From: Phycisphaerae bacterium
GTDB lineage: Bacteria; Planctomycetota; Phycisphaerae; Phycisphaerales; UBA1924
Length of the DNA stretch: 64,000 nucleotides
Assembly (NCBI GenBank): GCA_030432905.1
Contig: JAUILU010000001.1
Coordinates: forward strand, 372,001-436,000
Reading direction: 5' to 3'
The notes under the pieces were generated by a model that was given only the letters and a program-made list of their open reading frames with translations, was not told the DNA's origin and ran no database searches. Shown one piece after another: positions 10,000 through 56,869 of this stretch. A program made the position numbers and the translations under genes. Numbering within the stretch: the stretch's first letter is position 1; each line of letters opens with the position of its first letter.

Positions 10000-10049
10000 G
10001 CGCCCATGCCTCTGACATCCGCGAGCGAATCGGCGAACAAGCAAATAGA

Positions 10050-10081: not shown

Positions 10082-10105
10082 GGGAGTGATGAAAGTGTGT
10101 AAGAC

Positions 10106-10999: not shown

Positions 11000-11114
11000 G
11001 TGTTATCTCTCCCTGGTTACCCATGTAAATACCACCCGGTTCCCGCCGGGATGGCTGTGTCTCTTCCGTTAAGAGTGTACAAGGTTGCCAGCCGTGGGTG
11101 AATCAGGAAAAGGG

Positions 11115-11146
11115 CTGTATACACGATTTCATGGCGCTGTATACAG
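11115..11146. promoter_or_regulatory. Paired CTGTATACA(C/G) palindromes, centres 22 bp apart
   Basis: CTGTATACAC (11115-11124) and CTGTATACAG (11137-11146) sit 22 bp centre to centre, about two helical turns, and the two arms form a larger inverted repeat GGCTGTATACA...TGTATACAGCC. They lie about 115-150 bp upstream of the PEP-CTERM protein gene and end 2 bp before the stop codon of the following ABC ATPase gene. Spacing on one DNA face supports cooperative binding of a dimeric regulator (inference). Confidence 0.6.
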
Positions 11147-11147
11147 C

Positions 11148-12032: not shown

Positions 12033-13063
12033 CGGAGCCAGCCCGATCGATAAAGCAAGTAGATGAAGTACGGCCCACCGATGAGCCCAGTGACAACACC
12101 GACGGGCAGTTCACTCGGCGCGAGAACGGTGCGTGCAAGCAGATCGGACCAGAGCAGAACAGATGCGCCCGCGAACGCTGAAACGGGGAGGACGAAACGG
12201 TTCGTGCCGAGCACGAGGCGTACGAGGTGCGGCACAACTAGGCCTATGAAACCAACTAAACCCGCGACACTCGCAGCAGATCCCGCAAGCAGCGAAGCCG
12301 CAGCGAACGCGATGAGCCTCGTGCGCTCTACACGGACTCCCATGGTTGAAGCCGCGTCGTCACCGAGTTCGAGCACACGCATACTCCGGTGGAGCGACAT
12401 CGCCATGACCATGCCGACGATGGAATAGGGCAGCATGAGTCTGAGGTGCTGCCAGCCCCGGCCGTTGAAGGAACCGGTGGTCCAGAACATGACAGCAGGG
12501 ATGCGGTCAGCGAACGCGGTGATGAGCAGCCCGATGATCGCGCCGAGGATCGCGTTCACTGCAACGCCTGCGAGGATCATGCGCACAGGTGACGCTCCCC
12601 CGCCTGGTCGCCAAGACACGGCATAGACAAAGACCGCGGAGACCATCGCCCCGATGAACGCGGCGATCGGAAGCAGCACCGCGACCCCTGGCAGCACAGC
12701 GAGCACAACCGTTGCCGCCATGCCCGCGCCGGCGGTGATGCCGATCAGCCCCGGATCAGCGAGCGGGTTCCGCGTCACGCTCTGAAGCAGCACGCCCGAA
12801 ACCGCGAGGTTACAACCAGCGAGAACCGCGCACAACGCTCGTGGGAGTCTTGCATCAAGCACAATCCGGCGGGTGGTCTCGGCTGCATCACCCGCGAACA
12901 CAGCCAGCACCTCGGCGACCGATATATCAACCGCTCCGAGCGCAAGCGACGCCAGCAGGCCCGCGATAATCGACACGCCGACCACGCACGCGCCGATCTT
13001 CAGTCGAAGCGCATTCGGGCTGGATGCTTCCAGCTCGGATTGGTTCGCGGCAAGCGTGGTCAA
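12029..13063 (-). CDS. FecCD-family ABC importer permease
   Basis: Inner-membrane permease of the iron/heme/cobalamin importer, 344 residues with about ten hydrophobic helices. Family blocks are visible: DARLPRALCAVLAGCNLAVSG, GLIGITAGAGMAA, and GLVGFIGLVVPHLVRL near the C-terminus, the stretch that contacts the ATPase. The start is a TTG at 13063 that overlaps the stop of the binding-protein gene by 4 bases (TTGA). The protein is expected to work as a homodimer with the ATPase dimer below and the lipoprotein at 13060 above. Confidence 0.92.
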   Translation of the reverse strand: MTTLAANQSELEASSPNALRLKIGACVVGVSIIAGLLASLALGAVDISVAEVLAVFAGDAAETTRRIVLDARLPRALCAVLAGCNLAVSGVLLQSVTRNPLADPGLIGITAGAGMAATVVLAVLPGVAVLLPIAAFIGAMVSAVFVYAVSWRPGGGASPVRMILAGVAVNAILGAIIGLLITAFADRIPAVMFWTTGSFNGRGWQHLRLMLPYSIVGMVMAMSLHRSMRVLELGDDAASTMGVRVERTRLIAFAAASLLAGSAASVAGLVGFIGLVVPHLVRLVLGTNRFVLPVSAFAGASVLLWSDLLARTVLAPSELPVGVVTGLIGGPYFIYLLYRSGWLR

Positions 13064-13986
13064 GGAAGCTTGGACCTCGCCTCGTCGATAATGCCCCGGA
13101 TCTCGGCGATGGCGCGAGGCAGCTCGGAGCCGGGACGCATCGCGTAAAGATCATCCTTCAGGAACGTGACATGGTTGCCCTTAACCGCTGAGAGTTCACT
13201 CCAAAGCGCATCGCGTTGGAGCATCGCTCGCGCTGATTCCTCAGCACCGTGGAAGATCACGAGCAGATGATCAGGGTCGCGATCGATGACGGCTTCCATG
13301 CTCAGTGGTGCAAGCCCGCGGAACACCCCGTGGGTTTCCATGTCGTCGGTGATCATCACACCACCGGCGCTTGCGACGAGATTGCCGAGGTAGCTGCTCG
13401 GCAAGAACGCGTAGAACGCGTGCGGGGTGCCGAACACAGCGAGCACACTGACTGGCTCAGCGTCTTCAGCAGGAGCCGAGATACTCGCGCGTACCGAATC
13501 AGCCAGTTCACTCGCGGCTTCGGTCGTATCAACAAGTTCGCCGAGTGTCTCGATGTGCTTCGTCACGTCGGCGATCGTGTCAACGTCCATCGTGACGATC
13601 TTGGCGCCGGTGGATTGCTCGATCGCGGGCATGAACTGGGCGTAGACGCTGGTTGTCACGACCACGTCAGGTGAAGCCGCCATGAGTTGTTCAAGGTTTG
13701 GCCCCGCGGAGTGGTCAACGGTGATCGCAGGGATGCCCTCCCAGGTGGGCGGGATGTCGCCTCTTAAGAGCGGGACAGCGACCGGGGTAACGCCCATCTC
13801 GATGAGTTGATCAGCCGCGAAAGGCAGCAGCGTCGCAACTCGGATGGTTTCCGATGCTTCCGAAGTTGTCGCTGTGGTGTCGGTCGTTGGCGCATTTGAA
13901 TCTTTGCCGCTGTCACAGGCGGCAAGACTCAACGAGACGACGAGACCCACTGAGAGTGTCGTAAGTCGATTGATCTTTGCTGACAT
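13060..13986 (-). CDS. ABC importer substrate-binding lipoprotein, FecB/BtuF/IsdE type
   Basis: Periplasmic receptor for the FecCD-type importer, 308 residues. The signal MSAKINRLTTLSVGLVVSLSLAAC carries lipobox LAAC, then a Ser/Thr-rich linker. The mature part shows the type III binding-protein pattern of two lobes and one long helix: TIRVATLLPFAADQLIEMG, LEQLMAASPDVVVTT and HAFYAFLPSSYLGNLVASAGG. The last segment resembles heme and siderophore receptors more than BtuF in my reading. It is the first gene of the operon, and a Fur-like inverted repeat lies about 105 bp upstream, which favours an iron-linked substrate over cobalamin. Which ligand is bound cannot be settled from sequence alone. 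Confidence 0.85.
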   Translation of the reverse strand: MSAKINRLTTLSVGLVVSLSLAACDSGKDSNAPTTDTTATTSEASETIRVATLLPFAADQLIEMGVTPVAVPLLRGDIPPTWEGIPAITVDHSAGPNLEQLMAASPDVVVTTSVYAQFMPAIEQSTGAKIVTMDVDTIADVTKHIETLGELVDTTEAASELADSVRASISAPAEDAEPVSVLAVFGTPHAFYAFLPSSYLGNLVASAGGVMITDDMETHGVFRGLAPLSMEAVIDRDPDHLLVIFHGAEESARAMLQRDALWSELSAVKGNHVTFLKDDLYAMRPGSELPRAIAEIRGIIDEARSKLP

Positions 13987-40005: not shown

Positions 40006-40892
40006 CACGCGGCCTCCTTGCTGCGCATGGCAAGCCCGATCGCGGTCGCCCACTTCGAGTCGAAGTTGATCCCGCTCAACCAAGGCTTCGGTGCCAGATC
40101 GATCGGCATGTCGTTGGTGATGTCGGCCTCGAAATCCTGCAGGATGATCTCGCAGACCTTGTCGTACACATCGGGTTGGCCCAGCACGACGATGGTCGCG
40201 TTCTCGAGCGACGGGAAACGAGACGCAAGGTAGTCGATTGTCCCGCCGATGCCGGCGCTGGCTTTCTGGATTACATCCGACCCGCTCGAGTGCGCGATGT
40301 TCCTGGCAAAGAGCACGTTGCTGCCTTCGAGCGCGTAGAGACGAACACTCCGGCGGCCAGCATCGATAATGACCCGGCTGTTGGCGCCGGTCACCCTTCC
40401 CAGTGCCACGACCTCGGGCTCGATCGCTTCGACCACGACACCTTCGTTCTCGAATGGCTGGATCATCTGTGTCGCGTCTTCGTGCGAGTAAGCGATTGAA
40501 AAGTACTCCGAAGCGCCCTGCCTGCCATCGCTTGGGAGATCCCACAGCCGAGACTCGAACGGGCCCTTGATGGTCTTTGACATCTCGGCATTGGCGAGCG
40601 ACTCGACCGGCGCACCGGATGACCTTGGCGGGAGTTCGAGTATCGAAGTCGCGAGCCTATCGGGCGAGGCGCTGATCGCGATCCGGTGCATGTTGACGCC
40701 TTGCCGCTGCATCGCACTGATGAGCCTCTGGACGTCACGTTCGATCGGACAGACGTGGTTCGGTGTCCTCTGCGTTTCTGTAGCCGCGACAACCTCAACG
40801 CCCGTGCCTGATTGGCGCAACGCCACAGCACGGAGCGTAGTGCTTCCGACGTCTACACCGATTGACAGTCTGCTGAGCACGTTGTTTCCCAT
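40005..40892 (-). CDS. pilM: PilM-like actin-fold pilus assembly protein
   Basis: A 295-residue cytoplasmic protein with an actin/FtsA-like fold. Phosphate-1 motif is in IGVDVGSTTLRAVAL; phosphate-2 in RVIIDAGRRSVRLYALEG; the adenosine region in ATIVVLGQPDVYDKV is weaker. It is a little shorter than typical PilM (about 350). PilM binds the N-terminus of PilN and couples cytoplasmic ATPases to the membrane platform. ATG 40892 overlaps the gspF/pilC stop by one base. Confidence 0.85.
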   Translation of the reverse strand: MGNNVLSRLSIGVDVGSTTLRAVALRQSGTGVEVVAATETQRTPNHVCPIERDVQRLISAMQRQGVNMHRIAISASPDRLATSILELPPRSSGAPVESLANAEMSKTIKGPFESRLWDLPSDGRQGASEYFSIAYSHEDATQMIQPFENEGVVVEAIEPEVVALGRVTGANSRVIIDAGRRSVRLYALEGSNVLFARNIAHSSGSDVIQKASAGIGGTIDYLASRFPSLENATIVVLGQPDVYDKVCEIILQDFEADITNDMPIDLAPKPWLSGINFDSKWATAIGLAMRSKEAA

Positions 40893-42103
40893 TAGCCGGC
40901 CCCCGTCGAAGCTGTCAGGTCGAACAGCGGCAAGAAGAGGCTGAGCGCGATAAACCCGACGAACAAGCCGAGCACCACAAGGATCAACGGCTCGATAATG
41001 CTCGTGAGCGACCGAATCACGATGTCGTTGTCTTCATCCATAATGTCCGCGAGACTCATGAGCACCTCGCCGACCCGGCCTGTCTGCTCGCCGTTACGGA
41101 TTGCTTCACAGACCGACGTAGACAGCAGGCTCGACCCCGAGAACGCGTCGCTCATCGACTCGCCCCGCTCGACCTTGTCACGGGCGGACACGATCAGCTC
41201 TTCGTAGAGCACGTTGTTCGAGCTGTTCTGCGCAATCTCGAGTGATTCGAGCAACGGCACGCGGGCTTCCATCAGCACACCCAGAACTCGCGCGAACTTC
41301 GCGGTTTTGAACTCGCGAACAAGTTTGCCGAAGACCGGGATGCGGATATGAACGATGTCCTTAATCCGGTTGCCTTTCTCAGTGCGGATCCACTTGAATA
41401 AGCTGAACCCGGTGACGCCCACAACCGAGAGCACGATCCACCAGTAGGTCTTGGCGTACTCAGCGGTGACCATAATCATCGAAGTCGATGCGGGGATCGG
41501 CGCATCAAGGGTTTCGAAGAGTTCCTTGAACCTCGGTAGCACCGTGAACGCGAGCAGCACCAGGACGCCTGACGCGACCACCAGCAGGAGCGACGGGTAC
41601 ACCATCGCACCGGAGACGCTGTTACGAATCGACAGCTCTTGTCTGACGATCTTGGTGAGACGGTTGAGGATGTTCTGGAAGTCGCCGCCCGATTCGCCCG
41701 CGGCGATCATCGCGCGGTACAACTCGTCGAAGGCCGGGTACTTGGCCATCGCCTCGGCCAACGGCGTGCCCTCCTCGACATGCGACCTCAAGTCAGAAAG
41801 GACTTCCTTCCATTTCGCGTCGGAGGACTGATTCTCGACGGCTTCGAGCGCTTGAACGATCGGCGTGCCGCTGGTGATGAGCACCGACATCTGCCGGGTA
41901 AACGCTGCGACGTTCTTGAGCTGGCTGCCTGCGAACAGCGGCCTCGACACCTTCTCGCCTGTCGCCTTGCCGTCTTCGGCGATCGAGTCGACGTAGAGAC
42001 CATCTGCCTCGATCAGCGAGCGTGCCTCGGCCTCTGACGACGCTTCTTTTAGGCCGTTCTTCTTCGACCCGTCTTTGGTGTAAGCCGTGTACCGGTAGTT
42101 CAT
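40892..42103 (-). CDS. PilC/GspF inner-membrane platform protein
   Basis: A 403-residue polytopic protein of normal length. It has the N-terminal NYRYTAYTKDGSKKNG segment, then two T2SSF repeats: AAFTRQMSVLITSGTPIVQAL ... GESGGDFQNILNRLT and AKFARVLGVLMEARVPLLESL ... NGEQTGRVGEVLMSLADIMDED, each followed by hydrophobic helices. It is the rotor/platform on which the assembly ATPase acts. ATG 42103 overlaps the ATPase stop by 4 bases. Confidence 0.95.
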   Translation of the reverse strand: MNYRYTAYTKDGSKKNGLKEASSEAEARSLIEADGLYVDSIAEDGKATGEKVSRPLFAGSQLKNVAAFTRQMSVLITSGTPIVQALEAVENQSSDAKWKEVLSDLRSHVEEGTPLAEAMAKYPAFDELYRAMIAAGESGGDFQNILNRLTKIVRQELSIRNSVSGAMVYPSLLLVVASGVLVLLAFTVLPRFKELFETLDAPIPASTSMIMVTAEYAKTYWWIVLSVVGVTGFSLFKWIRTEKGNRIKDIVHIRIPVFGKLVREFKTAKFARVLGVLMEARVPLLESLEIAQNSSNNVLYEELIVSARDKVERGESMSDAFSGSSLLSTSVCEAIRNGEQTGRVGEVLMSLADIMDEDNDIVIRSLTSIIEPLILVVLGLFVGFIALSLFLPLFDLTASTGAG

Positions 42104-43857
42104 GCCGCCAACCTCGTTTCATTGGCGGCAGGGCCCTCATCTTCTTCCTGCCCATCGACATGCGTCACACGCAGCGCCTCTTCGAGACTCGTCAAGCCTT
42201 CCATAGCAACGCGCACCGCTTCTTCACGCAGCGATGGCACGCCCTGCTCACGCAGCTTGACCCGCAGCTCGTGCGATGGCGCACCGATGTGGACAAGCTT
42301 CCTGATCGCCGGCGTCACCGCCATGAGTTCGTAGACACCGACCCGGCCGCTGAAGCCTGAGTCGTGGCAGTTCTGACAGCCGGCACCCTTGTGGAAGGAT
42401 CTTGGCGACTCTGTCGAGAGCCCGGCGTCGAGCAGAGCCGCGTCGCTCGGGTAGTACTTCGAGACACATTGTGGGCAGATCTTCCGCAAGAGTCGCTGCG
42501 CCACGGACCCGATGATCGCGCCCGAGAGCAGGTACGACTCGATACCCATGTCAACCAGTCGCGCAACCGCACCCGGGGCGTCGTTCGTGTGCAGGGTCGC
42601 AAGCACGAGGTGACCCGTGAGCGATGCCTGCACCGCGACGCGAGCGGTGTCCTCGTCTCGGATCTCGCCGATCATGATCGTGTCAGGGTCCTGACGGAGA
42701 ATACTCCGCAGCGCCCGCGAGAAGCTCAGACCGATCTGCTCGTTCACCTGGATCTGGTTCACCAGACCGACCTGATACTCGACCGGATCTTCAACTGTAA
42801 GGATGTTTCGTTCTGGTGTTCGCAGCTGATCCAGCGCTGAGTAGAGCGTCGTCGTTTTACCCGAACCAGTAGGACCCGTCACGAGTAGCAAGCCGTGCGG
42901 CCTATCGAGGAGATCCCTGAACGTCGTCATGTCATCCTGGCGGAAACCAAGGTCTTCAAGGCGCACACGCAGGTTTGACTTATCGAGCACACGCGCCACG
43001 ATCTTCTCGCCGAGTAGCGTGGGCATACTCGACATACGGAGGTCAACCTCTCGGCCCTCGGCAATAATCCGCACACGACCCTCTTGCGGCAGACGCTTCA
43101 CGGCGATGTCCATCTTCCCGATGACTTTGAGTCGGCTGATGATCGCCGAGTGCATGCCCGGGGGTGGGTTCATCAGATCGCGGAGCACGCCGTCGATCCG
43201 GTAGCGGATCCGCGTGCCACGTTTGTCGGGCTCGATGTGGATATCGCTCGACCCGTCTTTAACCGCGGTCAGCAGCGCAATGTTGACGAGATTGACGATC
43301 GGGCTTCCCGCGATCATCTTGTCGAGGTCTGTTTCGGGGCCGTCGTCTACGGATTCACGCTCGACAACCTCAAGATCCTGATCGCCGAGCGACATCAAGA
43401 ATTCGTCTACATTAACGTTTCCGCCCTTGTACTTGCGCACATACTCGAGGATGTTCGCCTCGAGCGCGAGCACGGGCCTGATCTCGTACCCGGTCGCCGA
43501 CTTGAGTCTGTCGATCGTCGGCAGGCTCTTGGGGTCCATCATCGCAACCGTCAGCGTGTTCCCGACCTTGAACATAGGGATAACAACGGATTTCTCGCAC
43601 TCTTCTTCGCCGATCTCGGAGATCAGAGTCGGATCGATCAGGCCGTGACGCAGGTGACAGCCTCGCACGCCCATGCACTTGGCCAGCGAATGGACGAGCA
43701 CCTGCCCGGAGACGATGCCCTGATCGACGAGCAGCGCACCGAGTTTTTCGCCGGTTCTGGCCTGCTCCATGAGCGCGCGCTGCAGCTGCTCTTCGTTGAT
43801 GGCGCCATCTTCAATCAGCGCCTCGCCTACCCGCTTGTGTCGCCTACGCAGACTCAA
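42100..43857 (-). CDS. PilB/GspE assembly ATPase
   Basis: A 585-residue cytoplasmic hexameric ATPase that powers pilus or pseudopilus assembly. The N-terminal GspE_N region (about 10-150) carries the MshEN-like GEALIEDGAINEEQLQRAL repeat; Walker A is GPTGSGKTTTLYSAL, the Asp box ILTVEDPVEYQ, Walker B MIGEIRDEDTA and the His box ATLHTNDA. A C4 zinc site is present: KICPQCVSKY ... GCQNCHDSG. MshEN domains bind c-di-GMP in some homologues. The start is TTG 43857, overlapping the STAS stop (TTGA). No PilT-like retraction ATPase is in the window. Confidence 0.95.
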   Translation of the reverse strand: MSLRRRHKRVGEALIEDGAINEEQLQRALMEQARTGEKLGALLVDQGIVSGQVLVHSLAKCMGVRGCHLRHGLIDPTLISEIGEEECEKSVVIPMFKVGNTLTVAMMDPKSLPTIDRLKSATGYEIRPVLALEANILEYVRKYKGGNVNVDEFLMSLGDQDLEVVERESVDDGPETDLDKMIAGSPIVNLVNIALLTAVKDGSSDIHIEPDKRGTRIRYRIDGVLRDLMNPPPGMHSAIISRLKVIGKMDIAVKRLPQEGRVRIIAEGREVDLRMSSMPTLLGEKIVARVLDKSNLRVRLEDLGFRQDDMTTFRDLLDRPHGLLLVTGPTGSGKTTTLYSALDQLRTPERNILTVEDPVEYQVGLVNQIQVNEQIGLSFSRALRSILRQDPDTIMIGEIRDEDTARVAVQASLTGHLVLATLHTNDAPGAVARLVDMGIESYLLSGAIIGSVAQRLLRKICPQCVSKYYPSDAALLDAGLSTESPRSFHKGAGCQNCHDSGFSGRVGVYELMAVTPAIRKLVHIGAPSHELRVKLREQGVPSLREEAVRVAMEGLTSLEEALRVTHVDGQEEDEGPAANETRLAA

Positions 43858-44189
43858 GAGAAGCTCCGTACCGCGGTGCTGATGTCATCGAACTGCTCGC
43901 AGATCGCACCGACTTCTGTAAGCGCGAGAACCTCGCGGATCGTTTCGTTTGTGCCAGAGAGCCTCAGCACCCGGCCCGAGTTGACGAGCTTGGTACCAAA
44001 GGTGTTGATCATGTCGAGGCCCTTGCTGTCCGTGTAGGGCACCATCGAGAGATCGAGCACGAGTCGGCCCTTGTTCTCCATGTAGGCCTGCTCAAGCGAA
44101 TCGTGGAGCGACATCGCATCGATCCCCAGGAGTGGCCCCTTAGGCGACAAGATCGTGACCGCGGCTTGTTGCTGGATATCGATGTTCAT
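43854..44189 (-). CDS. STAS domain protein (anti-sigma factor antagonist-like)
   Basis: A 111-residue single STAS domain: GPLLGIDAMSLHDSL, RLVLDLSMVPYTDSKGLDMI, NSGRVLRLSGTNETIREVLALTEV. The DSKG motif holds the Ser that is phosphorylated in SpoIIAA-type antagonists. It sits 11 bp after the histidine kinase gene and overlaps the pilus ATPase gene by 4 bases. No SpoIIAB-like kinase or PP2C phosphatase is adjacent, so its partner could be the histidine kinase or a distant protein. Confidence 0.87.
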   Translation of the reverse strand: MNIDIQQQAAVTILSPKGPLLGIDAMSLHDSLEQAYMENKGRLVLDLSMVPYTDSKGLDMINTFGTKLVNSGRVLRLSGTNETIREVLALTEVGAICEQFDDISTAVRSFS

Positions 44190-44200
44190 GTCTTGCCGTC

Positions 44201-45670
44201 CTACGCCGCCAGTCTCGGCTTGGGCATCGAGAGCGTGAACGTGCTGCCCTTGTTGAGTTCGGAATCGAGGTGGAGCTCCCCGCCGTGCATCTGAGCGACC
44301 TGCCTCGCGAACGCGAGACCGAGCCCAGTGCCCTCGATGTCAGAGACCCTGCTGTCATCCGAACGAAAGAACTTCTCGTACACCTTCTCCTGCTCTTCCG
44401 GCGCGATGCCGATTCCCGTGTCCTCGATCGCGATCCGCAGGATCGATTCCTCGTCCTCGGCGCGAACAACCACTGAACCACCCGACGGCGTGTACTTGAT
44501 CGCGTTGCCGACAAGGTTGTGAAGCGTCGCAGCGATCTTGTCGCGGTCGCCGTGCAACACGGGAATTTTCGGAGGCAGATCAAACGTGAGCGATACGCCC
44601 CTGTTCGCGGCAAGCGACGCAAAGTCTTTCTCTAAGTCTTCGAGAAGCTGCTCGATACGAACATCGCCGCGGTCCATGCTGCGTGCGCCGGCTTCGAGCT
44701 CGGAGATATCGAGCAACTCAGAGACGATCCGCTCAAGGCGTAGAGATTCGCTGGAGATCACATTCAGAGCCTCGGCCCGGCACTTGTGATCCTCTTCGCC
44801 CGCTTCGATTGCCTCATCAACATACAAACGGATGTTTGTCAGTGGCGTCCGGAGTTCGTGCGTCGCCTGAGCTAGGAAATCGTGACGGGAACGCTCGGCA
44901 AGTCTCTGGCGTGTCACGTCGTGGACGATGACCGAGGCGCACACGTCTGGGTTATCCTTGATCGGCGCGACAGACATCCGCAAGATTTCTTCGTAGGTCT
45001 TCATTCCGTTCTCGCGCACGATGTCAACACCAACCCGGCGTTGAACCCTGCCCGAGAGCACATCTTCGAAGCTCGCCAGCGAGTCTCCCTCAAGGTACTG
45101 GCGAAGATCCTTGCCGATGAGCGTTTCTTCCCCATCTGCGAGGACTGACACGCTTGACGTGTTGTGCAGGACAACTCTGCCAGCAGCGTCAACGATGCAT
45201 ATCGCGTCCGGGTGAGATTCGAGCGCCACGACTGCAGCACCGGCATCCATCGCAGCGCCTTGCGCGTCGGTGACGATCGGGAGCTGCGTGGCGCAGATTC
45301 GGCTGTGAACCAGACTGTTCCACGCGTTTGCGGGCCCTGATCCCGGGTCGGTGACCAGCAGTTCTGCCTCGGTCACTTCTGGTTCATTGGCGATGGTCAC
45401 CGCTTCGGCGACGCACGCGATGTGAAACAGGTTCTTTCTGGTTCGGGCAAGAAGTATCAAACCCACGACAACCGGCAAACCAACGACGCCGTAGAGAATC
45501 GGATCGATGTTTGCAAGCCCGCCGAGCTTCCAAGCCGAGAAAGCGAGAACCAGCGCCCCCGCGAGAACCGGTGTAGCGGCGAGCATGACGAGATCGGCCG
45601 GTGTTCGCGCCGATTGCCTCGACAGGACACTGTCCGTCTTTGATTTCTTTAGATTTGTACCGATTTGCAT
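44201..45670 (-). CDS. Membrane sensor histidine kinase with PAS domain
   Basis: About 489 residues. Two TM helices lie near the N-terminus (about 28-75) with almost no periplasmic loop; a PAS domain follows (HPDAICIVDAAGRVVLHNT), then HisKA with FLAQATHELRTPLTNIRLY and HATPase with GNAIKYTPSGG, DTGIGIAPEEQEKVYEKFF and GTGLGLAFARQVAQMHGG. All phosphotransfer motifs are intact. ATG 45670 is preferred to 45697, but neither has a clear Shine-Dalgarno. It is the first gene before STAS and the pilus ATPase. No cognate response regulator adjoins it. Confidence 0.9.
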   Translation of the reverse strand: MQIGTNLKKSKTDSVLSRQSARTPADLVMLAATPVLAGALVLAFSAWKLGGLANIDPILYGVVGLPVVVGLILLARTRKNLFHIACVAEAVTIANEPEVTEAELLVTDPGSGPANAWNSLVHSRICATQLPIVTDAQGAAMDAGAAVVALESHPDAICIVDAAGRVVLHNTSSVSVLADGEETLIGKDLRQYLEGDSLASFEDVLSGRVQRRVGVDIVRENGMKTYEEILRMSVAPIKDNPDVCASVIVHDVTRQRLAERSRHDFLAQATHELRTPLTNIRLYVDEAIEAGEEDHKCRAEALNVISSESLRLERIVSELLDISELEAGARSMDRGDVRIEQLLEDLEKDFASLAANRGVSLTFDLPPKIPVLHGDRDKIAATLHNLVGNAIKYTPSGGSVVVRAEDEESILRIAIEDTGIGIAPEEQEKVYEKFFRSDDSRVSDIEGTGLGLAFARQVAQMHGGELHLDSELNKGSTFTLSMPKPRLAA

Positions 45671-45825
45671 ATGTACAATCCGCCCAGCCGGGGCCATTCC
45701 CGGTAGGACGGATATCGGTCGACAGGACTTTCACTTCAACCCCTGCCCGGATTAGCGGACCGCAAGTGAGGAATTCACACTTCTCACCAGGCATTCCCCT
45801 TACCCGGGCAGCGAGTTATCCGGCC

Positions 45826-48800
45826 CTAGAGCGTGTTACGCAGACGTCGCCCGCTATCTCGTGCAGGCTCCTCGGGCGGCACCAGCATTATCTGGACGTT
45901 AACGATCTCGAAGTCGTCGTAGTCGTCACCCGAACTGATCCGGCTCTCGATCTCGATCGTGTTCTCGCCCTCATTGAGCCACTCGGCGGGGAACGCCGCG
46001 AAGAACGGCCCGAAGCTGCCATCTCTTGGGGAACCAGTCAGCGGTTTGCGAACACGGTTGCCGTTGATACGGATCACGTTGTTGGTCTGCAGCCCCTTGG
46101 CCAGCATCGTCACACCCGCCAGTTCGCCGAGCATCGCGTGCTGCTCCGCGTTGACAACAAAGTCGGCCTCGTACACCGTGCCCTCGCTGTCTTTCTGGAA
46201 CTGGCTGTTAATCCGACCACCGAACGCGTTGTTGCCCAGGTGGTGCACCTCTGGGTTCTCTTCGATCGAGATCACCGCCTGACGTATCGGATCGAGCCGG
46301 ATCTCTCTGACTACGCCTTCTTCAAGGCGCGCTATTGGCAGGTTGAACGCCGAAGGTGTGTAGCCGGCGAGTGAAGCTGTGACCGCAACAAAGTCCGCGT
46401 CGAACTCCGGGCGGAGCACAAACGTGCCGTCGTCGCCAGTGTGCGTCTCAACAAGCCCGCCGAGGTCGGAGTCGATTTTCACGAGCGCATTCGGGATCGG
46501 CTCATTAGTCACCGCATCGCGGACAACACCCGAGAAATGACGCTCGATCGCTACCTGCTCAGGTGCCTCGATGCTTGCGGGCAGGGCAAGGTCGAGATCG
46601 AGCATCCCGATGTCTTGATCCTCAAAGTCAGGTCTAGACGCAGCGTTCGAGCGCATGTGCTCAGATACATCAGTTATCGAGTCGTCGAATGCGGATGCAT
46701 TGAGCGAGGCTTCATCAAGCAGAGGTTCAGCAAAGTCGGGGTTGCTGTCTCCTGAGAGCGCGAGTTCCGCTTCACCGATGTCCTCGAACGAGGCTTCAAC
46801 TTCGCCGACATCCGCCTGCTCTGTGGATGATTCCGCCGATTCTCGCATCACTTCACCAGGGAGGTCCAACTCGGCGAACGAATCGTCAGCCTGTGCCAGG
46901 TCTGGCATATCGAAGTCATACTCACGCGGAGCGGATGAATCTGTAGTCGGCAGATCCATATCAAGTCGCTCATCGATGATGCTCAACCCCACATCGGCGA
47001 TCTCGGTTTGCTGCGTAGAACCACCGATACGCACTGCCGCGGCCGACGACTCATCTGACATCAAAGATGGCGATACCGCAAGCTGAGTTTCTTCTCCGGT
47101 TCGCTCGCTGCCCGCGCGATCTGGCAACTCAACAGAATCCGTCACGCTCCCGATCGCCTCTAGTTCAGGCACGACCTGATCCATGACCTGCCTAGGGGTT
47201 GGTTCGCTGTGACTCGGCACCGACACCGGATTCACCGCATGCAGCGATTCGGACGATGAATCGAATGCCTGAAGCGTCAGCGCCTGATCTGAGAACTGAT
47301 CAGTCGCCGTGAGCTGAACCTCGGCCTGGCTCGGATCGGATTGACCACGCGCAAGCGCGGACTCTGACGTCGCCTGCTGTTCCGTCACAGCTTCGCGGCT
47401 CGAGGTCGCCGGCAATTCGTACGCGACTTCAGCCTGCTGCTGCGGCAATTCCGCCTGAGTCGTCTGGTCCTGCTCACGCGTCGGCATCGCCTGCGTCAAC
47501 CGAACCTCTGCCGGTGCGAGTTGGTCGTTCACCTGTGTCGGCGTGAGCTCAGACCGCAGTTCAGAGTCGAAGCGCGGCGCCTGAGTCAACTCCATCGCCG
47601 CCTGATCGACAGCCATCTCGATCGAATCGCTTTGAACTTCAGAAGCCACTTCTCCTCTAATCTGCGAGATCGCGCCCCCGCCAACCGACGACGAGACCAG
47701 CGTGACCTTCGATCCGCCGGGCGTGTTGAATAAGCCGTCGAGGTTGTTCGAGACCTGCCACACGGTCAAGAGCGCCAGTAGAAGCATGTGGACCAAACCC
47801 GAGATAATCAGGCACTTCGCCAGCAGACCCAGCTTTCGCCAGCGGGCCTTCCAGCGGTCGTCCGTCGTAATCTTCCGAAGCAGGGCGAGCAACGCAAGCA
47901 GGGCCAGCAGGAGCAAGAGCCAAGGCACAACGATCTTCAGGAAGTCGACGAGCGACATCCGAGCCGCGAGCATCTCGACGTCACGGTACACCTCGCGCGA
48001 ATGCGTGCGGTAGAGGTTATAGTCCCGGTCGTCGTCAGCACCATCAATGCGGTCAGAACTGAACGCTAGCCCGAAGCCGCCCATGCCGAGAGTCGGATCG
48101 AGTTCGTTCTGCGCTGTGTTAACACCGTCGCCGAGGTGCTCGATCGGAAAGTACTCGCCGTCAACGAGCCGAACGCGGTAGAGATCAAACCCGCCCACGC
48201 CGCCCGGCCTGTCTGACGCGAAGTACATGAAGTCGTTGACAGGGCTGACCTCGGGCGCGCCGTCGTTGAACGCGCTCGACAGTTCTTCAACGAGTGACGC
48301 CTCGGCGATACCGCGGTCGGTGATCTCCGCCGAGTAGATGTCGTACGGCAAGTTCTGAAACGACTCCCGCACGGTCGCTGGCCAGCGCCCGGAAGAATCG
48401 AGCACCTTCTCATCCGGGTTTCGTGGCCGATTAGATGCGAAATAGAATCGCATAGAGTCGGGCGAAATTGATGGGCCGTAGTCGTTGAACACGCTGTTGA
48501 CGCTCGATCCGAGCACGCGAGGCTCGCCCCAGCTGACGCCTTCGCGTTCAACAAACCAGATATCGTACCCACCGAGTGACCCCGGGCGGTCGCTGTAGAA
48601 ATACAGCCCGTCGCCGTCGGGCGTAAACGCGGGGCCGAGATCGTCGTACTCGGTATTCAGAGCGGCAACAGGTTCCGGCTCGGTCCAGCCATCGGGCGTG
48701 CGGATCGACTGGTAGATATCCGCACCGTCACCAGGCCGGCCTCGCACGAACAGCAGCGTCAGCCCATCGGGACTGAGCGTCGGTTCGTACTCGTCGTAGT

Positions 48801-49005
48801 CTGTGTTGAGACGATCGCCGAGCCATTCCGGCGGTTGCCACAGAACATCGCGCAGCTTGGCAACTTCTTTCGATGCCCTAATCGTGTCCGCATCCGTGTA
48901 CACCGCGCTCGAGCGCGGCAACGTGAGCCAGAGCGCGGCTCCAACGACAACCGCACCAAGAATCACGCCAAGCATGACCGGGAATGTCTTTGCCGATCGC
49001 ATCAT
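45826..49005 (-). CDS. PD40 beta-propeller protein with TonB/TolA-like SxxxH helix, fused to carboxypeptidase-regulatory and jelly-roll-like domains
   Basis: A 1059-residue envelope protein. Parts in order: TM about 8-30; five PD40 (TolB-type) propeller repeats about 68-335 (YEPTLSPDG, GPAFTPDGD, GPSISPDSM, APEVSPVND, DPTLGMGGF, each followed by an SDRPG-like turn); TM about 354-376; a basic loop (RKITTDDRWKARWRK); TM about 397-417 with S402-GLV-H406. Then comes a Gln/Glu/Ser-rich low-complexity stretch to about 815, a carboxypeptidase-regulatory domain about 823-905 (FSGVVRDAVTNEPIPNALVKI), and a C-terminal galactose-binding-like domain ending LNEGENTIEIESRI. S-x3-H at the fifth and ninth residue of the helix is the proton-coupling motif of TonB and TolA. 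Basic residues before it predict N-in/C-out, as in TonB. It lies 10 bp after the ExbD-type gene. An energised envelope-spanning role is inferred. Confidence 0.75.
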   Translation of the reverse strand: MMRSAKTFPVMLGVILGAVVVGAALWLTLPRSSAVYTDADTIRASKEVAKLRDVLWQPPEWLGDRLNTDYDEYEPTLSPDGLTLLFVRGRPGDGADIYQSIRTPDGWTEPEPVAALNTEYDDLGPAFTPDGDGLYFYSDRPGSLGGYDIWFVEREGVSWGEPRVLGSSVNSVFNDYGPSISPDSMRFYFASNRPRNPDEKVLDSSGRWPATVRESFQNLPYDIYSAEITDRGIAEASLVEELSSAFNDGAPEVSPVNDFMYFASDRPGGVGGFDLYRVRLVDGEYFPIEHLGDGVNTAQNELDPTLGMGGFGLAFSSDRIDGADDDRDYNLYRTHSREVYRDVEMLAARMSLVDFLKIVVPWLLLLLALLALLALLRKITTDDRWKARWRKLGLLAKCLIISGLVHMLLLALLTVWQVSNNLDGLFNTPGGSKVTLVSSSVGGGAISQIRGEVASEVQSDSIEMAVDQAAMELTQAPRFDSELRSELTPTQVNDQLAPAEVRLTQAMPTREQDQTTQAELPQQQAEVAYELPATSSREAVTEQQATSESALARGQSDPSQAEVQLTATDQFSDQALTLQAFDSSSESLHAVNPVSVPSHSEPTPRQVMDQVVPELEAIGSVTDSVELPDRAGSERTGEETQLAVSPSLMSDESSAAAVRIGGSTQQTEIADVGLSIIDERLDMDLPTTDSSAPREYDFDMPDLAQADDSFAELDLPGEVMRESAESSTEQADVGEVEASFEDIGEAELALSGDSNPDFAEPLLDEASLNASAFDDSITDVSEHMRSNAASRPDFEDQDIGMLDLDLALPASIEAPEQVAIERHFSGVVRDAVTNEPIPNALVKIDSDLGGLVETHTGDDGTFVLRPEFDADFVAVTASLAGYTPSAFNLPIARLEEGVVREIRLDPIRQAVISIEENPEVHHLGNNAFGGRINSQFQKDSEGTVYEADFVVNAEQHAMLGELAGVTMLAKGLQTNNVIRINGNRVRKPLTGSPRDGSFGPFFAAFPAEWLNEGENTIEIESRISSGDDYDDFEIVNVQIMLVPPEEPARDSGRRLRNTL

Positions 49006-49015
49006 GACCTATCCC

Positions 49016-49429
49016 CTATCGCGTGGGCACGGTGTCCAAATACGGCTCTTGAATCCCCGACAGCTTGCACGCATCGAGCACACCAACAACCTGGCTGTAC
49101 GTCGCGGCCTGATCCGCGCGGATCGTCACCTTCTGCTCCGGATTTGCCGCGACGGCCTCCGACACAATCGCCCGCAGGTCCTCGATGCTCACTGTTCGCC
49201 CGCTGACGATGATCTCGCCGTCGGATTGAACGTTGATGATCAGTTCGCGCAGCGTCATCGAAATAGGCCCGCCGCTCTCGGCGACCGGGAGCGCGATCTG
49301 CATCTCTCGCTCCGATTGCTGGAACGTCGTTGCAACCAAGAAGAAGATCAGCAGCAGGAACACAATGTCGATGATCGGCGTGAGTTCGATCGACGGCGAC
49401 GAATCGGTTGACTTGGCTTTGAGTAGCAT
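49016..49429 (-). CDS. ExbD/TolR-family proton channel subunit
   Basis: A 137-residue bitopic membrane protein. The single TM carries the essential Asp: IELTPIIDIVFLLLIFFLVATTF. The periplasmic domain follows (LINVQSDGEIIVSGRTVSIEDL, VTIRADQAATYSQVVGVLDAC), a normal ExbD fold. The ORF track adds 28 residues; ATG 49429 is chosen because it follows the ExbB stop at 49440 by 10 bases and starts the conserved chain. With ExbB it forms the proton-driven stator. Confidence 0.93.
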   Translation of the reverse strand: MLLKAKSTDSSPSIELTPIIDIVFLLLIFFLVATTFQQSEREMQIALPVAESGGPISMTLRELIINVQSDGEIIVSGRTVSIEDLRAIVSEAVAANPEQKVTIRADQAATYSQVVGVLDACKLSGIQEPYLDTVPTR

Positions 49430-49439
49430 GCTTGGGTCC

Positions 49440-50213
49440 TTAGCCGATCGCGCCGCCGCGCACCGGGAACGAATCGGCAACGACGCCGCTGTGCTCGTCT
49501 TCCAACTCTTCATCCGCGTGGCCGGTCGCGCTGGCGATCGCCTCGACCGCGTCCATGCACACCGAGTCCATCTGACGTGTTAGGTTCTCGATGCGGGAGG
49601 AGAACCAGTGGTACACAACCAGCGCCGGGATCGCAACGACGAGGCCCGCGGCGGTTGTGATCATGGCCTCATAGATTCCGCCTGCGAGCAGTTCGGTTTT
49701 ACCGAGCGAATCCGCCGAGACCGCGACGGTTTGGAACGCCTTAATCATGCCGAATATCGTGCCGACAAGACCGAGCAGAGGAGCGATCGCCGCGACGACT
49801 GACAACGCGCGCAGTCTTCTGCGGAGCATGAAGATCTCGTGCTCACCCGCGGCGGCCATGTGCTTCTCGACTGACTCCATCGGTCTGCCGATCCGCTCCA
49901 CACCACCGAGCACTGTGCGTGCGATCGGGCTGTCGGACTGCTTGCAGTAGTTGACCGCGTCTTGCTTGCCGCTTGTGCCGCGTTCGAGTAGCGGGAACAG
50001 GCCGCTGGCGAAGTTGTCGGGTATGACTTGTTTCTTGCGGAGCACGACCGCGCGTTCGACCGTGACCGTGACGATCACAAGCGAGCAGATCGCGATCGGG
50101 ATCATCATCAGGCCACCCTTGACCACGAAATCCCAGACCGAGTTGACTGCGACCTCCGTGGCCTCGGCTCCGGCGGCTTCCTGCGCGAGTGTGAGCAATA
50201 GTGACGTATCCAC
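49440..50213 (-). CDS. ExbB/TolQ/MotA-family proton channel subunit
   Basis: A 257-residue protein with three TM regions: VKGGLMMIPIAICSLVIVTVTVERA, VVAAIAPLLGLVGTIFGMIKAF and MITTAAGLVVAIPALVVYHWFSSRI. The last two contain the conserved family motifs (PLLGLxGTVxGM and TxxGLxxAIPAxxxYN). A long cytoplasmic loop lies between the first and second helix. GTG 50213 is the start. The gene lies 18 bp after the TPR gene, and all four genes of this locus are on one strand with gaps of 10-18 bp. Confidence 0.94.
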   Translation of the reverse strand: MDTSLLLTLAQEAAGAEATEVAVNSVWDFVVKGGLMMIPIAICSLVIVTVTVERAVVLRKKQVIPDNFASGLFPLLERGTSGKQDAVNYCKQSDSPIARTVLGGVERIGRPMESVEKHMAAAGEHEIFMLRRRLRALSVVAAIAPLLGLVGTIFGMIKAFQTVAVSADSLGKTELLAGGIYEAMITTAAGLVVAIPALVVYHWFSSRIENLTRQMDSVCMDAVEAIASATGHADEELEDEHSGVVADSFPVRGGAIG

Positions 50214-50231
50214 AGTTCCGACCTTTCTCTT

Positions 50232-53200
50232 TTACCCGCCCTGTTCTGTTCGTGGCATCAGCCGTTCGAGTCTGCGTTCGGACATCACGGCCCAGTCTGT
50301 TTCATTGAACCGCTCGATCACATCCGTGAACTGGCTGATCGCGTCCGCGTCACGGTCGAGTTCCTCGAAGCACCGGCCCGCCTCGTAGAGAGCCGCCGCC
50401 GACCACTTCGGGTAGGCGTACACAAGATCAACCCGCAGGAATTCGCGGACCGCTTCGTCGTGCTTACCCTGCGCGAAGAGGCATTCACCGATCTGGAACT
50501 GCGCCCTCGCGGCGGTCTCGCCGTCGTGGTGCTCGACGACCTTGCGGTACTCCGCGATCGCTTCGTCGTGCCTGCTCTGGTTCTCGATCGCCCACGCGAA
50601 TCCGAATCTCGCAAGGTACAACCGATCGTCGGTCGGATACTCGTCGATGAATTCTGTGTATGTATCTTCGGCTCTGGACCAGTACTGAAGCCCCCCGAAC
50701 ACCTCACCAAGCCTGAGCATCGCGACTGGACGGATCGCATCGTCATCGAACCCCTGCGCGATCTCAAACAGCATCTGCGCCTCGGACAGCTTACCAAGAT
50801 GCAGGTTCGATTCCCCGGCGAGCAGCGCCGACGACGCGTTGATCCGCTGGGTCGGCTCACGGGTGGCGAGTTCGTAGAGCGCATCGATCGCACGGGTGTG
50901 CTCGTTCATCTCTCTTGCACAGACGCCGAGCCTGTACATGGCCTGATCCGCAACCGTGGGGTCTAGCCCCTCGCGATCATGGAGAATCTGCTCGCAGAAT
51001 TCCGCAGCTTCGGCGTACTCGCCCGCGTTCATCGACAGCACAGCAAGCTCTAGCCCCGTGTGCTGCGCGAGCCGATCATCGGGATAGAGATCGAGCAGCA
51101 GAACGAACGAACCGGCCGCGTCTTCGGCGCGTTCGAGGGCAACGAGCGATCGGCCCCGTTCGTACAGAACAGTCGCCGCGGTCTCGGCTGCGAGTGCGCC
51201 AAGATCAGCTGGCCTGCGTGTGAACATCTCGGACGCCTCGACCGCCCGTTCGTGTTCACCAAGCCTGGCGAGCGCGATCACGCCGAGTGCGCCGGCCTTT
51301 GTCCGTATCTCAGCCTGCTCTGCGTTATCCGCCAGATCCGCGAGCACCCTGTACGCTCTCTCGTAGGAACCCGACGTCAGAAGAGCCCTGCCCTGTTCGA
51401 GTGACGAAGCGCCCGACAGCTCTCCATCGGACACCGACGCGGCACGCGCGAAGTACTCCGCCGCGTCCTCATCGTTGCCCGAATCTCGCGCAAGCTGTGC
51501 GAGTTGGCGGAGCGCGTAGCCGGCGACTTCGTCATCACCAGCCGAAGCCGCCGATTCAAACGCGGCAACAGCTTGGTCTGACTCGTCGAGTTCGAGCAGC
51601 ACGAGTCCGAGTTCGTACCTCGCCCGGCCGTCGGCATCATTGCCGGCGTCAACGATCTGGCTGAACGCCGACTGCGCCGCTCTGCGGTCCCCCGCCTGTT
51701 TGTGCGCCAGCCCAAGGCGAAGAGCCGCGGCGTCCCACGAGGGCACATCGGTGCCCAGCTCGACATACCGGCTAAGCCACGCCGCCGATTCCTGCCAATC
51801 CTCGTCGGAGTAAGCCATATCTCCGAGCGCTAGCAGTCCCGCCCTGTACTCGCTACTGACCTCGCCCGAATCGAACAAGTCGCTCAGCACGCGCCGTGCT
51901 TCTTCGCGTTCGCCGATCTGGCGGAGGCTCATACCGAGCCGGTACTGGACCGTACCACTTAGCCTGTGATTGGCCGGCATGTCTTCCCCCAGCCGAGCAA
52001 ACAGCCGAGCGGATGACTGGTAGTCGTCCTGCTGGTACGCGCTCTCTGCGGACAGGAATCTCGCTTCGTAAGCCGAATCACCGTCCAAACCGTCGGCGGC
52101 TTCGTCGGCGAGTCGGCTCGCGAGCCTTTGGTCATCTGAGTTCTGTGCAAAAGAAGCCGCAGCGAGCAGGGCTTGGTGAGAGAGCGAGTGGCCCGTGTAC
52201 AACTGGTTGAATCGGCGGAGTGTTCTGATCGCGGCCTCGTGGTCGCCGCTCTTTCCCTGCGCCAAACCAAGCTCGTACATCATCTCGGGAAGCAACTCGG
52301 AACGGTCGTGCTCCTCAACAGCGTCGGCCAGAAGCCGAGCCGCGCCTGCCGCGTCACCGGCCTCGCTGAGCGCCCGAGCCTGCCAATACGCCGCGTCGTC
52401 TTGCAACCGCTCGGGGCCGCGGGTCCGCACCTCATCGAGGAATTCATCGGCAGCCGCGTAGTCGCCGAGCAGCGTCGCGACCCGCCCGCGTTCAAGCTGG
52501 AGCTTGGCCATCGTCACTTCATCGAGATCGCGCTCACGGATCGTGCCCAGCATCTCGTTGGCTTCGGTGTGGCGATCAAGATCAGAAAGTACCTGCGCCA
52601 AGCCGAGCCTCGCGTCGAACGCGGGCATGCCCCCGGCTCGTTCCACAGCTCCCGAGTACGCCCGCAGCGCCTCGTCCAACCTGCCGATCGCTTGCAGGCT
52701 TCGACCCTGCGCAAGTAGTGCCGCTTGCGCGAGCGACGAGTTGCCCCTACCGATCCGTGCGAACCTGTCAGCCGCTGCTTGGTGCCGACCCAGCTTCGCC
52801 TCGGCAAGCCCCGCAAAGTAGGACGCCCGCTCGCCGACCGCACCGCTTAAATCAGACTCGTACTCTTCGAATGCCTCGATCGCGCGTTCCGATTGGTCCC
52901 CTCGGAATCGCGCCTCGACGAGTAACGCCGCGGCTTGGGGCGCCAGCTTGTGATCGCCGTGCCTTGAGAGCGCCCTTTCGAGCACACCCGCCGAGTCTCG
53001 TGATTCACCGATGGCGAGCTTGCTCCGCCCGACGAGCACCGCCGACTCCATCGCGTACTGGAACCTGTGTTTGTTCAGGATCGGCTCGAGCGCCTCGATC
53101 GTTTCGTCGTGCCTGCCAAGCCTGCTGGCCGCGACCGCCAAGCCGTAGCGTGCCTGGTCCGCGAGTTCGTGGTCGCCGTGCTTCTCGAGGAACCGCTTGT

Positions 53201-53360
53201 ACTCATCGATCGCGAGATCGTCGAGGCCCCTGCTGAGCATGCCTGAGGCGGCGTTGTAGTTGTCCACTGCCCTACCACCGTCCTGGGCCGCCGCCGGCGC
53301 GATAATCGCAAGCCCCGCCGATGCCGCAAGAACACCCGCCAATACACGTTTCTGGTTCAT
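50232..53360 (-). CDS. Large periplasmic TPR-repeat protein
   Basis: A 1042-residue exported protein with signal peptide MNQKRVLAGVLAASAGLAIIAPAAAQ. The whole mature chain is a solenoid of tetratricopeptide repeats (about 25 by eye), e.g. LARYGLAVAASRLGRHDETIEA, AAADRFARIG, AQYRLGMSLRQIGE-like units, ending in ALYEAGRCFEELDRDADAISQF. The last units resemble the TPR part of YbgF/CpoB of the Tol-Pal system. ATG 53360 has GGGAGC upstream. It is first in the ExbB/ExbD operon and probably a periplasmic scaffold; cargo unknown. Confidence 0.85.
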   Translation of the reverse strand: MNQKRVLAGVLAASAGLAIIAPAAAQDGGRAVDNYNAASGMLSRGLDDLAIDEYKRFLEKHGDHELADQARYGLAVAASRLGRHDETIEALEPILNKHRFQYAMESAVLVGRSKLAIGESRDSAGVLERALSRHGDHKLAPQAAALLVEARFRGDQSERAIEAFEEYESDLSGAVGERASYFAGLAEAKLGRHQAAADRFARIGRGNSSLAQAALLAQGRSLQAIGRLDEALRAYSGAVERAGGMPAFDARLGLAQVLSDLDRHTEANEMLGTIRERDLDEVTMAKLQLERGRVATLLGDYAAADEFLDEVRTRGPERLQDDAAYWQARALSEAGDAAGAARLLADAVEEHDRSELLPEMMYELGLAQGKSGDHEAAIRTLRRFNQLYTGHSLSHQALLAAASFAQNSDDQRLASRLADEAADGLDGDSAYEARFLSAESAYQQDDYQSSARLFARLGEDMPANHRLSGTVQYRLGMSLRQIGEREEARRVLSDLFDSGEVSSEYRAGLLALGDMAYSDEDWQESAAWLSRYVELGTDVPSWDAAALRLGLAHKQAGDRRAAQSAFSQIVDAGNDADGRARYELGLVLLELDESDQAVAAFESAASAGDDEVAGYALRQLAQLARDSGNDEDAAEYFARAASVSDGELSGASSLEQGRALLTSGSYERAYRVLADLADNAEQAEIRTKAGALGVIALARLGEHERAVEASEMFTRRPADLGALAAETAATVLYERGRSLVALERAEDAAGSFVLLLDLYPDDRLAQHTGLELAVLSMNAGEYAEAAEFCEQILHDREGLDPTVADQAMYRLGVCAREMNEHTRAIDALYELATREPTQRINASSALLAGESNLHLGKLSEAQMLFEIAQGFDDDAIRPVAMLRLGEVFGGLQYWSRAEDTYTEFIDEYPTDDRLYLARFGFAWAIENQSRHDEAIAEYRKVVEHHDGETAARAQFQIGECLFAQGKHDEAVREFLRVDLVYAYPKWSAAALYEAGRCFEELDRDADAISQFTDVIERFNETDWAVMSERRLERLMPRTEQGG

Positions 53361-56014: not shown

Positions 56015-56869
56015 TCAATCCACACCTGATTCGGCATCAGCCCAAGGTGTGCGGACCCGCCAGATGCACAGACCCGATGCTTTAGGTGTCCCCGTTGCCC
56101 GCCCGCTAGTGAAGTACAGCCAGTTCCCATCGGGGCTCAGGCAAGGGCTGCCGTCGATCGCGCCCGTGTTGAATGGCAGCAGTTCTGGCTCGCTCCAGCC
56201 ATCTTCTGTCCGTTCGCTCATGTAAAGATCCGACAACCCCGGCCCCTCGGGCTCGCCCATCCGCACAAAGATCAACCGTTTCCCGTCGGGCGTGAGAAGC
56301 GCATCGTGTTCACGGTATCGCGTGTTGATCGGCGCGCCGAGCCGGTCCGGCTTGCCCCAGCCTTCACCGTCGGGCTGGGCGAGGTAGATATCCCAGTTCC
56401 CGGCCGCCTGCCTCGTAAAGCACAGCTCGCCGTCCTTTGACACCGTGGGGTAAGCCTCGGGCTCTCTGGTGCTGATCTCGCCCGCTACCTCCGAAGGCTC
56501 AGACCACTTCCCATCCTCGTCGCGCTGCATCGTCCACACGTCGGCATCGCGGTACATCAGAAAGCGTTTGCCGTCGGGCGAAAGATGCCCGTCCCCGGCA
56601 TCGACGCCGTCGAGCTGGCCGTCGAAGTAGTCCGTTTGCTCCCACGCGCCATCAACAAGCCTGAGCGATTCGATCGTGCCCACGCCGGTGGTATCGTCGT
56701 ACCGGGTCAGCACCAGCAGACCGCCCTCGGGCGAGAGCGTTGTGTTAAACTCCGTGTTCGTCGTCGAGACAACGCCCGGCCCGACCAGCTCGGGTGTGCC
56801 CCACCCTTGTTCTTGAGTTTCTTGTTCCGAAACCAAAACTAGTGCGCACAACACGCCGACACAGACCAT
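56015..56869 (-). CDS. Small exported PD40 beta-propeller protein
   Basis: A 284-residue protein with a short N-terminal hydrophobic segment (MVCVGVLCALVLVS), probably a signal peptide, followed by five PD40 repeats: TTLSPEGGLLVLTR, GHLSPDGKRFLMYRD, PTVSKDGELCFTRQ, ALLTPDGKRLIFVR and PCLSPDGNWLYFTSGR. The propeller is of the same kind as in the 45826-49005 protein, but without membrane helices. ATG 56869 has GGGAG upstream. Function unknown; PD40 propellers usually serve as protein-binding platforms. Confidence 0.8.
   Translation of the reverse strand: MVCVGVLCALVLVSEQETQEQGWGTPELVGPGVVSTTNTEFNTTLSPEGGLLVLTRYDDTTGVGTIESLRLVDGAWEQTDYFDGQLDGVDAGDGHLSPDGKRFLMYRDADVWTMQRDEDGKWSEPSEVAGEISTREPEAYPTVSKDGELCFTRQAAGNWDIYLAQPDGEGWGKPDRLGAPINTRYREHDALLTPDGKRLIFVRMGEPEGPGLSDLYMSERTEDGWSEPELLPFNTGAIDGSPCLSPDGNWLYFTSGRATGTPKASGLCIWRVRTPWADAESGVD

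Follow-up and report, generated by a model that had tools for sequence, protein, structure and literature searches.

What does an ExbBD-type proton motor drive when its genes sit beside a protein that carries both a TolB-like propeller and a TolA/TonB-like anchor? The locus that raises this question lies in a 64,000-nucleotide stretch of a Phycisphaerae bacterium (the window; assembly GCA_030432905.1, contig JAUILU010000001.1, positions 372,001 to 436,000), where genes for a tetratricopeptide repeat (TPR) protein, ExbB/TolQ, ExbD/TolR and a 1059-residue PD40 protein follow one another on one strand. A first reading of the DNA (the original prediction) took them for a re-wired, proton-driven envelope machine, perhaps a planctomycete counterpart of Tol-Pal or a dedicated TonB system. 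On the strength of the sequence comparisons given here, we suggest, with a probability of about 0.72, that the four genes specify a force-transducer system that is powered by the proton motive force and ranks as a sister kind of Ton, Tol and the von Willebrand factor A (vWA) transducers proposed recently. The module is real and conserved, and apparently it has not been described before.

The gene unit is as first proposed. All four open reading frames (ORFs) lie on the minus strand at the predicted positions, separated by gaps of 18, 10 and 10 bp, and profiles from Pfam and NCBIfam confirmed the gene classes. The longest mechanical ORF for exbD begins within exbB, at 49513, and the ATG at 49429 yields a typical ExbD. 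A scan for promoters and terminators gave nothing exceeding shuffled sequences. The source genome (3.4 Mb, 94.75% complete) lies near Phycisphaera-type metagenome-assembled genomes, and the same unit is found well outside them. A propeller-derived pattern that took no account of neighboring genes was run once against 84,980 species genomes and returned 77 loci, mostly from Phycisphaerae and other Planctomycetota, with a few from Verrucomicrobiota, Kiritimatiellota and Lentisphaerota and two outliers from Bacteroidota. Upstream sequence of 5 kb or more is available for 58 loci, and 57 of them keep the order TPR-exbB-exbD-PD40 on one strand; closed, single-contig genomes show it too. Thus the order sought in planctomycetes reaches beyond that phylum, strongly opposite to a PD40 gene that never neighbors exbBD, and these loci, the closed genomes and the residue conservation described below rule out chance adjacency or an assembly artefact. 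One locus (L144, positions 8075-11665) differs: it reads as a TPR part that runs in frame into the rear of the PD40 protein, with ExbB and ExbD missing, and this could be either a real fusion or an assembly error.

The PD40 protein most plausibly serves as a force transducer, and consists of an inner-membrane-tethered propeller, a TonB/TolA-like anchor, a linker and a tip (Table 1). We modelled it with AlphaFold2 and 25 homologues, and took the transmembrane (TM) helices from hydropathy. The propeller block is modelled at a predicted local distance difference test (pLDDT) score of mostly 85-94, and the TM helices are helical in the model at about 80-85. Foldseek ranked TolB first for the whole model (E 6e-12), with low global TM-scores that owe something to the length and partial disorder of the query; the propeller can therefore be called TolB-like, as first proposed. 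By sequence it is closer to PorE (NCBIfam, 129 bits against a cut-off of 600) than to TolB (TIGR02800, 22.8 bits against a cut-off of 343). The SxxxH helix first placed at residues 397-417 was recovered as TM3, at 398-416, with S402xxxH406 inside it; S402, H406 and L413 make up the SHL of the SHLS motif as defined in PMC12215075. Because the loop ahead of it is rich in Lys and Arg, TM3 is predicted to run from the cytoplasm to the periplasm (N-in/C-out), as in TolA and TonB. Among relatives the disordered linker beyond it has a median length of 446 residues.

Conservation around TM3 supports the assignment of an anchor. All homologues that extend across TM3 were aligned, unselected on the motif; of the 70 rows, His406 is kept in all and Ser402 in 65, with Ala in four and a gap in one. 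Cryo-electron microscopy of TonB-ExbBD and TolAQR places the Ser and His of SxxxH in contact with TM1 of ExbB/TolQ (PMC12215075). The D-box of TonB (SVTM) is captured by ExbD through strand addition (PMC10907165), and the PD40 protein has a D-box-like strand at a distance from TM3 close to that in TonB. Within this strand V434 and L436 are hydrophobic in all 70 rows, amid an otherwise variable linker, and Q448 is also kept. In the motor subunits, T152, T187 and P196 of ExbB and D21 of ExbD are conserved at 93% or above; the two threonines align with the pore threonines of TolQ/ExbB, and D21 with the proton-carrying Asp of ExbD. These observations bear out both the TolA/TonB-like anchor and the proton-driven envelope machine of the original prediction. 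The broad features of an SHLS transducer are present, namely an N-in/C-out Ser-X3-His helix adjoining exbBD, a motor-box-like strand whose capture by ExbD is predicted, a long disordered linker and a globular tip.

Table 1. Genes of the four-gene unit and parts of the PD40 protein, in window coordinates.
Feature	Positions	Strand	Description
TPR protein	50232-53360	minus	1042 residues; Sec-type signal peptide, periplasmic; first gene of the unit; many Pfam TPR models
ExbB/TolQ-type motor subunit	49440-50213	minus	257 residues; GTG start; MotA_ExbB PF01618, 103 bits
ExbD/TolR-type motor subunit	49016-49429	minus	137 residues; ExbD PF02472, 104 bits
PD40 protein (putative force transducer)	45826-49005	minus	1059 residues; propeller, SxxxH anchor, linker, C-terminal tip
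TM1	48922-48978	minus	residues 10-28; predicted N-in propeller anchor; hydropathy, model helix 2-28
PD40 beta-propeller, PorE/TolB-like	47968-48915	minus	residues 31-346; PF07676, 92 bits
TM2	47878-47934	minus	residues 358-376; predicted return to the cytoplasm, then Lys/Arg-rich loop; hydropathy and model
TM3, putative motor-docking helix	47758-47814	minus	residues 398-416; S402xxxH406 and L413
D-box/motor-box-like strand	47692-47712	minus	residues 432-438, SKVTLVS; 18 residues past TM3
Disordered linker	46546-47727	minus	residues 427-820, about 390 residues; pLDDT below 50 throughout
CarboxypepD_reg Ig-like domain	46324-46536	minus	residues 824-894; PF13620 in 24 of 26 members
C-terminal jelly roll, carbohydrate-binding-module-like fold	45883-46311	minus	residues 899-1041; alignment, Foldseek

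The tip is the part of the protein that varies. Two confident beta domains close the window protein in the model, consistent with an Ig-like domain followed by a carbohydrate-binding-like jelly roll. The former, CarboxypepD_reg, is sub-threshold in the window protein alone (residues 825-887) and was absent from the original prediction. The jelly roll carries the aligned motifs HHLGN, NSQFQ, SPxDGSFG and DDFEFVN, resembles the PL4 rhamnogalacturonan lyases (PL4 domain III) by Foldseek, and matches the carbohydrate-binding-module-like family PF14683 weakly in one of 26 members. In most relatives the C-terminal part is an alpha/alpha toroid, with or without the CarboxypepD_reg/jelly-roll pair after it; the window protein and some relatives have the pair only. 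The toroid is modelled at pLDDT 92, is akin to squalene-hopene/terpene cyclases (profile search, E 2e-15; Foldseek), shares a fold with alpha/alpha-barrel glycosidases, and has Asp, Glu and Trp residues that do not vary. A tree was built from the propeller-TM core with 61 rows (30 with the toroid, 18 with CarboxypepD_reg and 13 with both, some of the toroid-only labels stemming from contigs that end early). The tip labels require 12 changes on it, of which at least 4-5 per label are forced by well-supported branches. Because the tip has changed repeatedly, we regard propeller, anchor and motor as constant and the tip as variable, the pattern expected of a transducer that is re-targeted.

Two further arrangements of these domains were seen. 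At several Verrucomicrobiota and Kiritimatiellota loci (L141, L142, L145, L146 and L149) two PD40 genes stand in tandem after exbD, the first with a toroid inserted within its propeller. At about 554 kb of contig C11 (L154/L160) the window's genome (G000) encodes an alpha/alpha-toroid protein that stands alone and is distantly related to the transducer toroid. We considered whether a toroid is supplied in trans, and set the idea aside, given that this distant, free-standing protein is the sole other toroid found in the genome.

The gene unit, the order of domains, the kept docking and proton-path residues and the exchange of tips are seen directly in the sequence; from these features we infer how the complex may assemble, transmit force and meet its ligand. 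ExbB and ExbD would form the inner-membrane motor, with TM1 and TM2 holding the TolB/PorE-fold propeller at the periplasmic face of that membrane. TM3 would dock on ExbB via Ser402 and His406, and the ExbD dimer would pick up the D-box-like strand that follows. Proton flow could then pull or move the disordered linker of about 390 residues and hence the tip, which may engage a glycan or a partner in the outer membrane or cell wall, either through the Ig-like and jelly-roll domains found here or through the toroid of most relatives. The large periplasmic TPR protein would act as an obligate adaptor.

Genes upstream of the unit suggest when such a machine might be used. In 57 loci the TPR gene is preceded by 2.5 kb or more of sequence; 39 of these have a gene for a BlaR1-type M56 peptidase directly upstream on the same strand, and 38 of those 39 have a BlaI-type repressor gene upstream as well, on that strand too (97-111 bits for M56 and 109-114 bits for BlaI in the members scanned by Pfam). 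In loci L076-L150 (for example L091, positions 1485-5201, and L082, positions 1672-5082) the BlaR1-like peptidase has a long coiled-coil tail. Since the pair precedes the unit in most relatives, we take the system to be accessory and probably inducible, and, by analogy, it probably responds to envelope or wall stress. It is present in 66 of 298 genomes of the class and, at a stricter threshold, in 26 of 392 genomes of a phylum-wide sample. One congener (G001, 96% complete) has no match to it; another (G003) has only TPR and PD40 fragments near a contig end (L066, positions 12655-13198), adjoining the same downstream genes, possibly a degraded copy. This distribution, with the findings in the two congeners, also marks the system as accessory. 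Its role is most likely that of an accessory, probably inducible machine for envelope maintenance or for work on wall or surface glycans. We put forward more tentatively, at somewhat less than even odds, that it forms a separate class native to the Planctomycetota-Verrucomicrobiota-Chlamydiota (PVC) bacteria, in which a motor works an inner-membrane-anchored propeller with an exchangeable periplasmic tip (toroid, Ig/carbohydrate-binding or both), and which descends from an ancestral blaI-blaR1-TPR-exbB-exbD-transducer arrangement switched on by envelope or wall stress.

Several observations weigh against a force transducer of this kind. The final Ser of SHLS is replaced by Gln417, and the aligned positions of the window ExbB lack the contact-site Trp of ExbB/TolQ (Trp38/Trp32); docking of TM3 on this ExbB is a prediction from the sequence. 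The two TM helices that precede the docking helix have no counterpart in TolA or TonB and might alter how force is passed on. The genus of the window lacks the BlaI-BlaR1 pair, and regulation there may differ; and the four genes have no linked gene for a partner in the outer membrane or wall.

The upstream pair can also be read in another way, in which the system signals and does no work: the tip or propeller would sense the state of the wall or glycan, and ExbBD would transmit or reset the signal, feeding the BlaR1-like protease and BlaI. The position of these two genes in 38 of 57 loci, binding-type domains that show no obvious catalytic motif, and the receptor-like swapping of tips among lineages all suit such a sensor. 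The pair is missing, however, from about a third of the loci, among them the window's genus and a distant Verrucomicrobiota/Lentisphaerota set. BlaI-BlaR1 is usually read as controlling downstream genes, and the proton-conducting residues are retained. We consider signalling improbable. A motor-driven envelope enzyme, in which the motor presents a toroid or jelly-roll tip that acts on a polyprenyl or glycan substrate, seems to us slightly less probable again. The kinship of the toroid with squalene-hopene/terpene cyclases (in sequence and fold) and alpha/alpha-barrel glycosidases (in fold), its invariant acidic and Trp residues, and the similarity of the jelly roll to PL4 domain III speak for an enzyme, but the toroid is dispensable, being absent from the window's lineage and others, and no catalytic motif was identified. 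Least likely, in our judgement, is a secretion or gliding motor of the type IX secretion or Glt type, in which the PorE-like propeller, CarboxypepD_reg and proton motor would move a surface component. PorE, itself a protein of TPR, propeller and CarboxypepD_reg, is the best family match of the propeller, and the gliding genes of the Glt set join a motor of the ExbBD type to TPR proteins and a transducer resembling TonB. Against this, the PD40 protein has no OmpA domain, no conserved outer-membrane barrel gene lies among the neighboring genes, and a genome search for SprA_N was empty, although this carries no weight, as its control gave no match either.

The Tol-Pal comparison needs fuller treatment, as it was the starting point. 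A TolQ/TolR-type motor with its pore residues, an SxxxH helix, a TolB-fold propeller and a TPR partner are common to both, and a re-wired Tol-Pal would equate the propeller with TolB, TM3 and the linker with TolA, the TPR protein with CpoB and an unlinked OmpA lipoprotein with Pal, stabilizing the outer membrane at division. The top Foldseek matches of the propeller to TolB, the fit of the TPR repeats to the YbgF/CpoB model and the unlinked OmpA-domain, lipoprotein-looking proteins in the genome are in keeping with this, as is the near absence of classical TolB from the class (over cut-off in one of 298 genomes). TolB-like propellers also occur elsewhere in the genome. The original prediction counted every Tol-Pal class except Pal as represented; the motor, docking helix and TolB-fold propeller stand, and the TolB N-domain, TolA C-terminal domain and CpoB trimerisation domain are missing. 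The PD40 protein has PD40 repeats without the Rossmann N-domain of TolB; it has no TolA or TonB C-terminal domain either, although no search of the whole genome for TolA (PF06519) was made. Pfam finds no N-terminal trimerisation domain of CpoB in the TPR protein, and no Pal is linked to the cluster, the OmpA domains of the genome being at 19 kb and 734 kb of contig C1 and 49 kb of contig C2 only. Here, moreover, propeller and anchor form one protein, and the propeller is held at the inner membrane next to the motor; TolB, by contrast, is soluble in the periplasm and binds Pal. Nearly all genomes of the class lack classical TolB, yet only 66 of 298 carry this system, so the gap left by TolB is not filled. 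Tol-Pal is normally a core system, and an accessory distribution, with no match in one congener and only fragments in another, is at odds with a general replacement. We reject a Tol-Pal counterpart on the missing domains and the patchy distribution, and give a re-wired Tol-Pal about the same long odds as the motor-driven enzyme. Elsewhere on contig C1 (about 718-720 kb; L073, positions 7667-10000) a lipoprotein-like PD40 propeller is followed by a separate lipoprotein-like protein with no Pfam match; judged by eye, these might be two halves of a TolB-like pair.

Other genes lie close to the unit in the window. Downstream of it on the minus strand (40892-45697) are genes for a histidine kinase, a STAS-type protein and PilB-like and PilC-like proteins, and at a locus of a sibling species (L052) histidine kinase, PilB-like and PilC-like genes stand in identical order; a regulatory or functional link to the unit is possible. 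A small secreted PD40/PorE-like propeller of 284 residues is encoded at 56015-56869 (minus strand), with 28% identity to the propeller of the large protein. It was rejected as a partner, as no strong relative was found at the homologous loci searched.

Few trans-envelope machines are known that run on protons and carry a TonB/TolA-like helix: Ton, Tol, Glt and the predicted vWA transducers. A force transducer of the kind proposed here would add another conserved machine, one whose transducer is built in a new way and has exchangeable tips; its parts are familiar to the specialist, but their assembly is not. Its hosts are bacteria with an unusual envelope and division and almost no classical TolB, and the BlaI-BlaR1 link hints at when the machine is used. 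With TonB-ExbB-ExbD it has in common the ExbB/ExbD motor, the SxxxH helix, the D-box-like strand and a long linker. The TonB C-terminal domain (PF03544) and the TonB-dependent receptor plug (PF07715) have no match in the genome, under searches in which positive controls were detected; therefore it is not a TonB uptake system, and the idea of a dedicated one falls away. In PVC and other bacteria, the vWA SHLS force transducers combine an SHLS helix, a motor box and a disordered linker, and their genes neighbor TPR-tolQ-tolR; their function is unknown (PMC12204202, 2025). They are single-TM proteins with a vWA-fold tip, whereas the transducer proposed here has a propeller on two further TM helices and a toroid or CarboxypepD_reg/jelly-roll tip, and Pfam finds no vWA match in the 1059-residue protein. 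The same genome has a second ExbBD set with a vWA protein bearing an SxxxH TM helix, at about 187-191 kb of contig C1 (L071, positions 7227-10616). As that vWA transducer has its own ExbBD, the system in the window is a second, different one. PorE (PG1058, type IX secretion) likewise unites a PorE-type propeller and CarboxypepD_reg in one polypeptide, also with TPR, but it is a lipoprotein of the outer membrane that has an OmpA domain and lacks a motor helix; the PD40 protein has no OmpA match and begins with a TM anchor rather than a lipoprotein signal. An orthologue of PorE was rejected on the score given above and the missing OmpA domain. The Agl/Glt gliding machinery of Myxococcus relies on a motor of the ExbBD type, on TPR proteins and on GltG, a multidomain transducer resembling TonB, which differs in having FHA and TonB_C, with no propeller, toroid or fused CarboxypepD_reg listed (PMC3169522). 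The original prediction knew of no described system with such a fusion, and in the open-access papers searched we likewise found no description of a propeller-SxxxH transducer with a toroid or CarboxypepD_reg tip. The closest described kin of the system are the vWA SHLS transducers (PMC12204202) and PorE.

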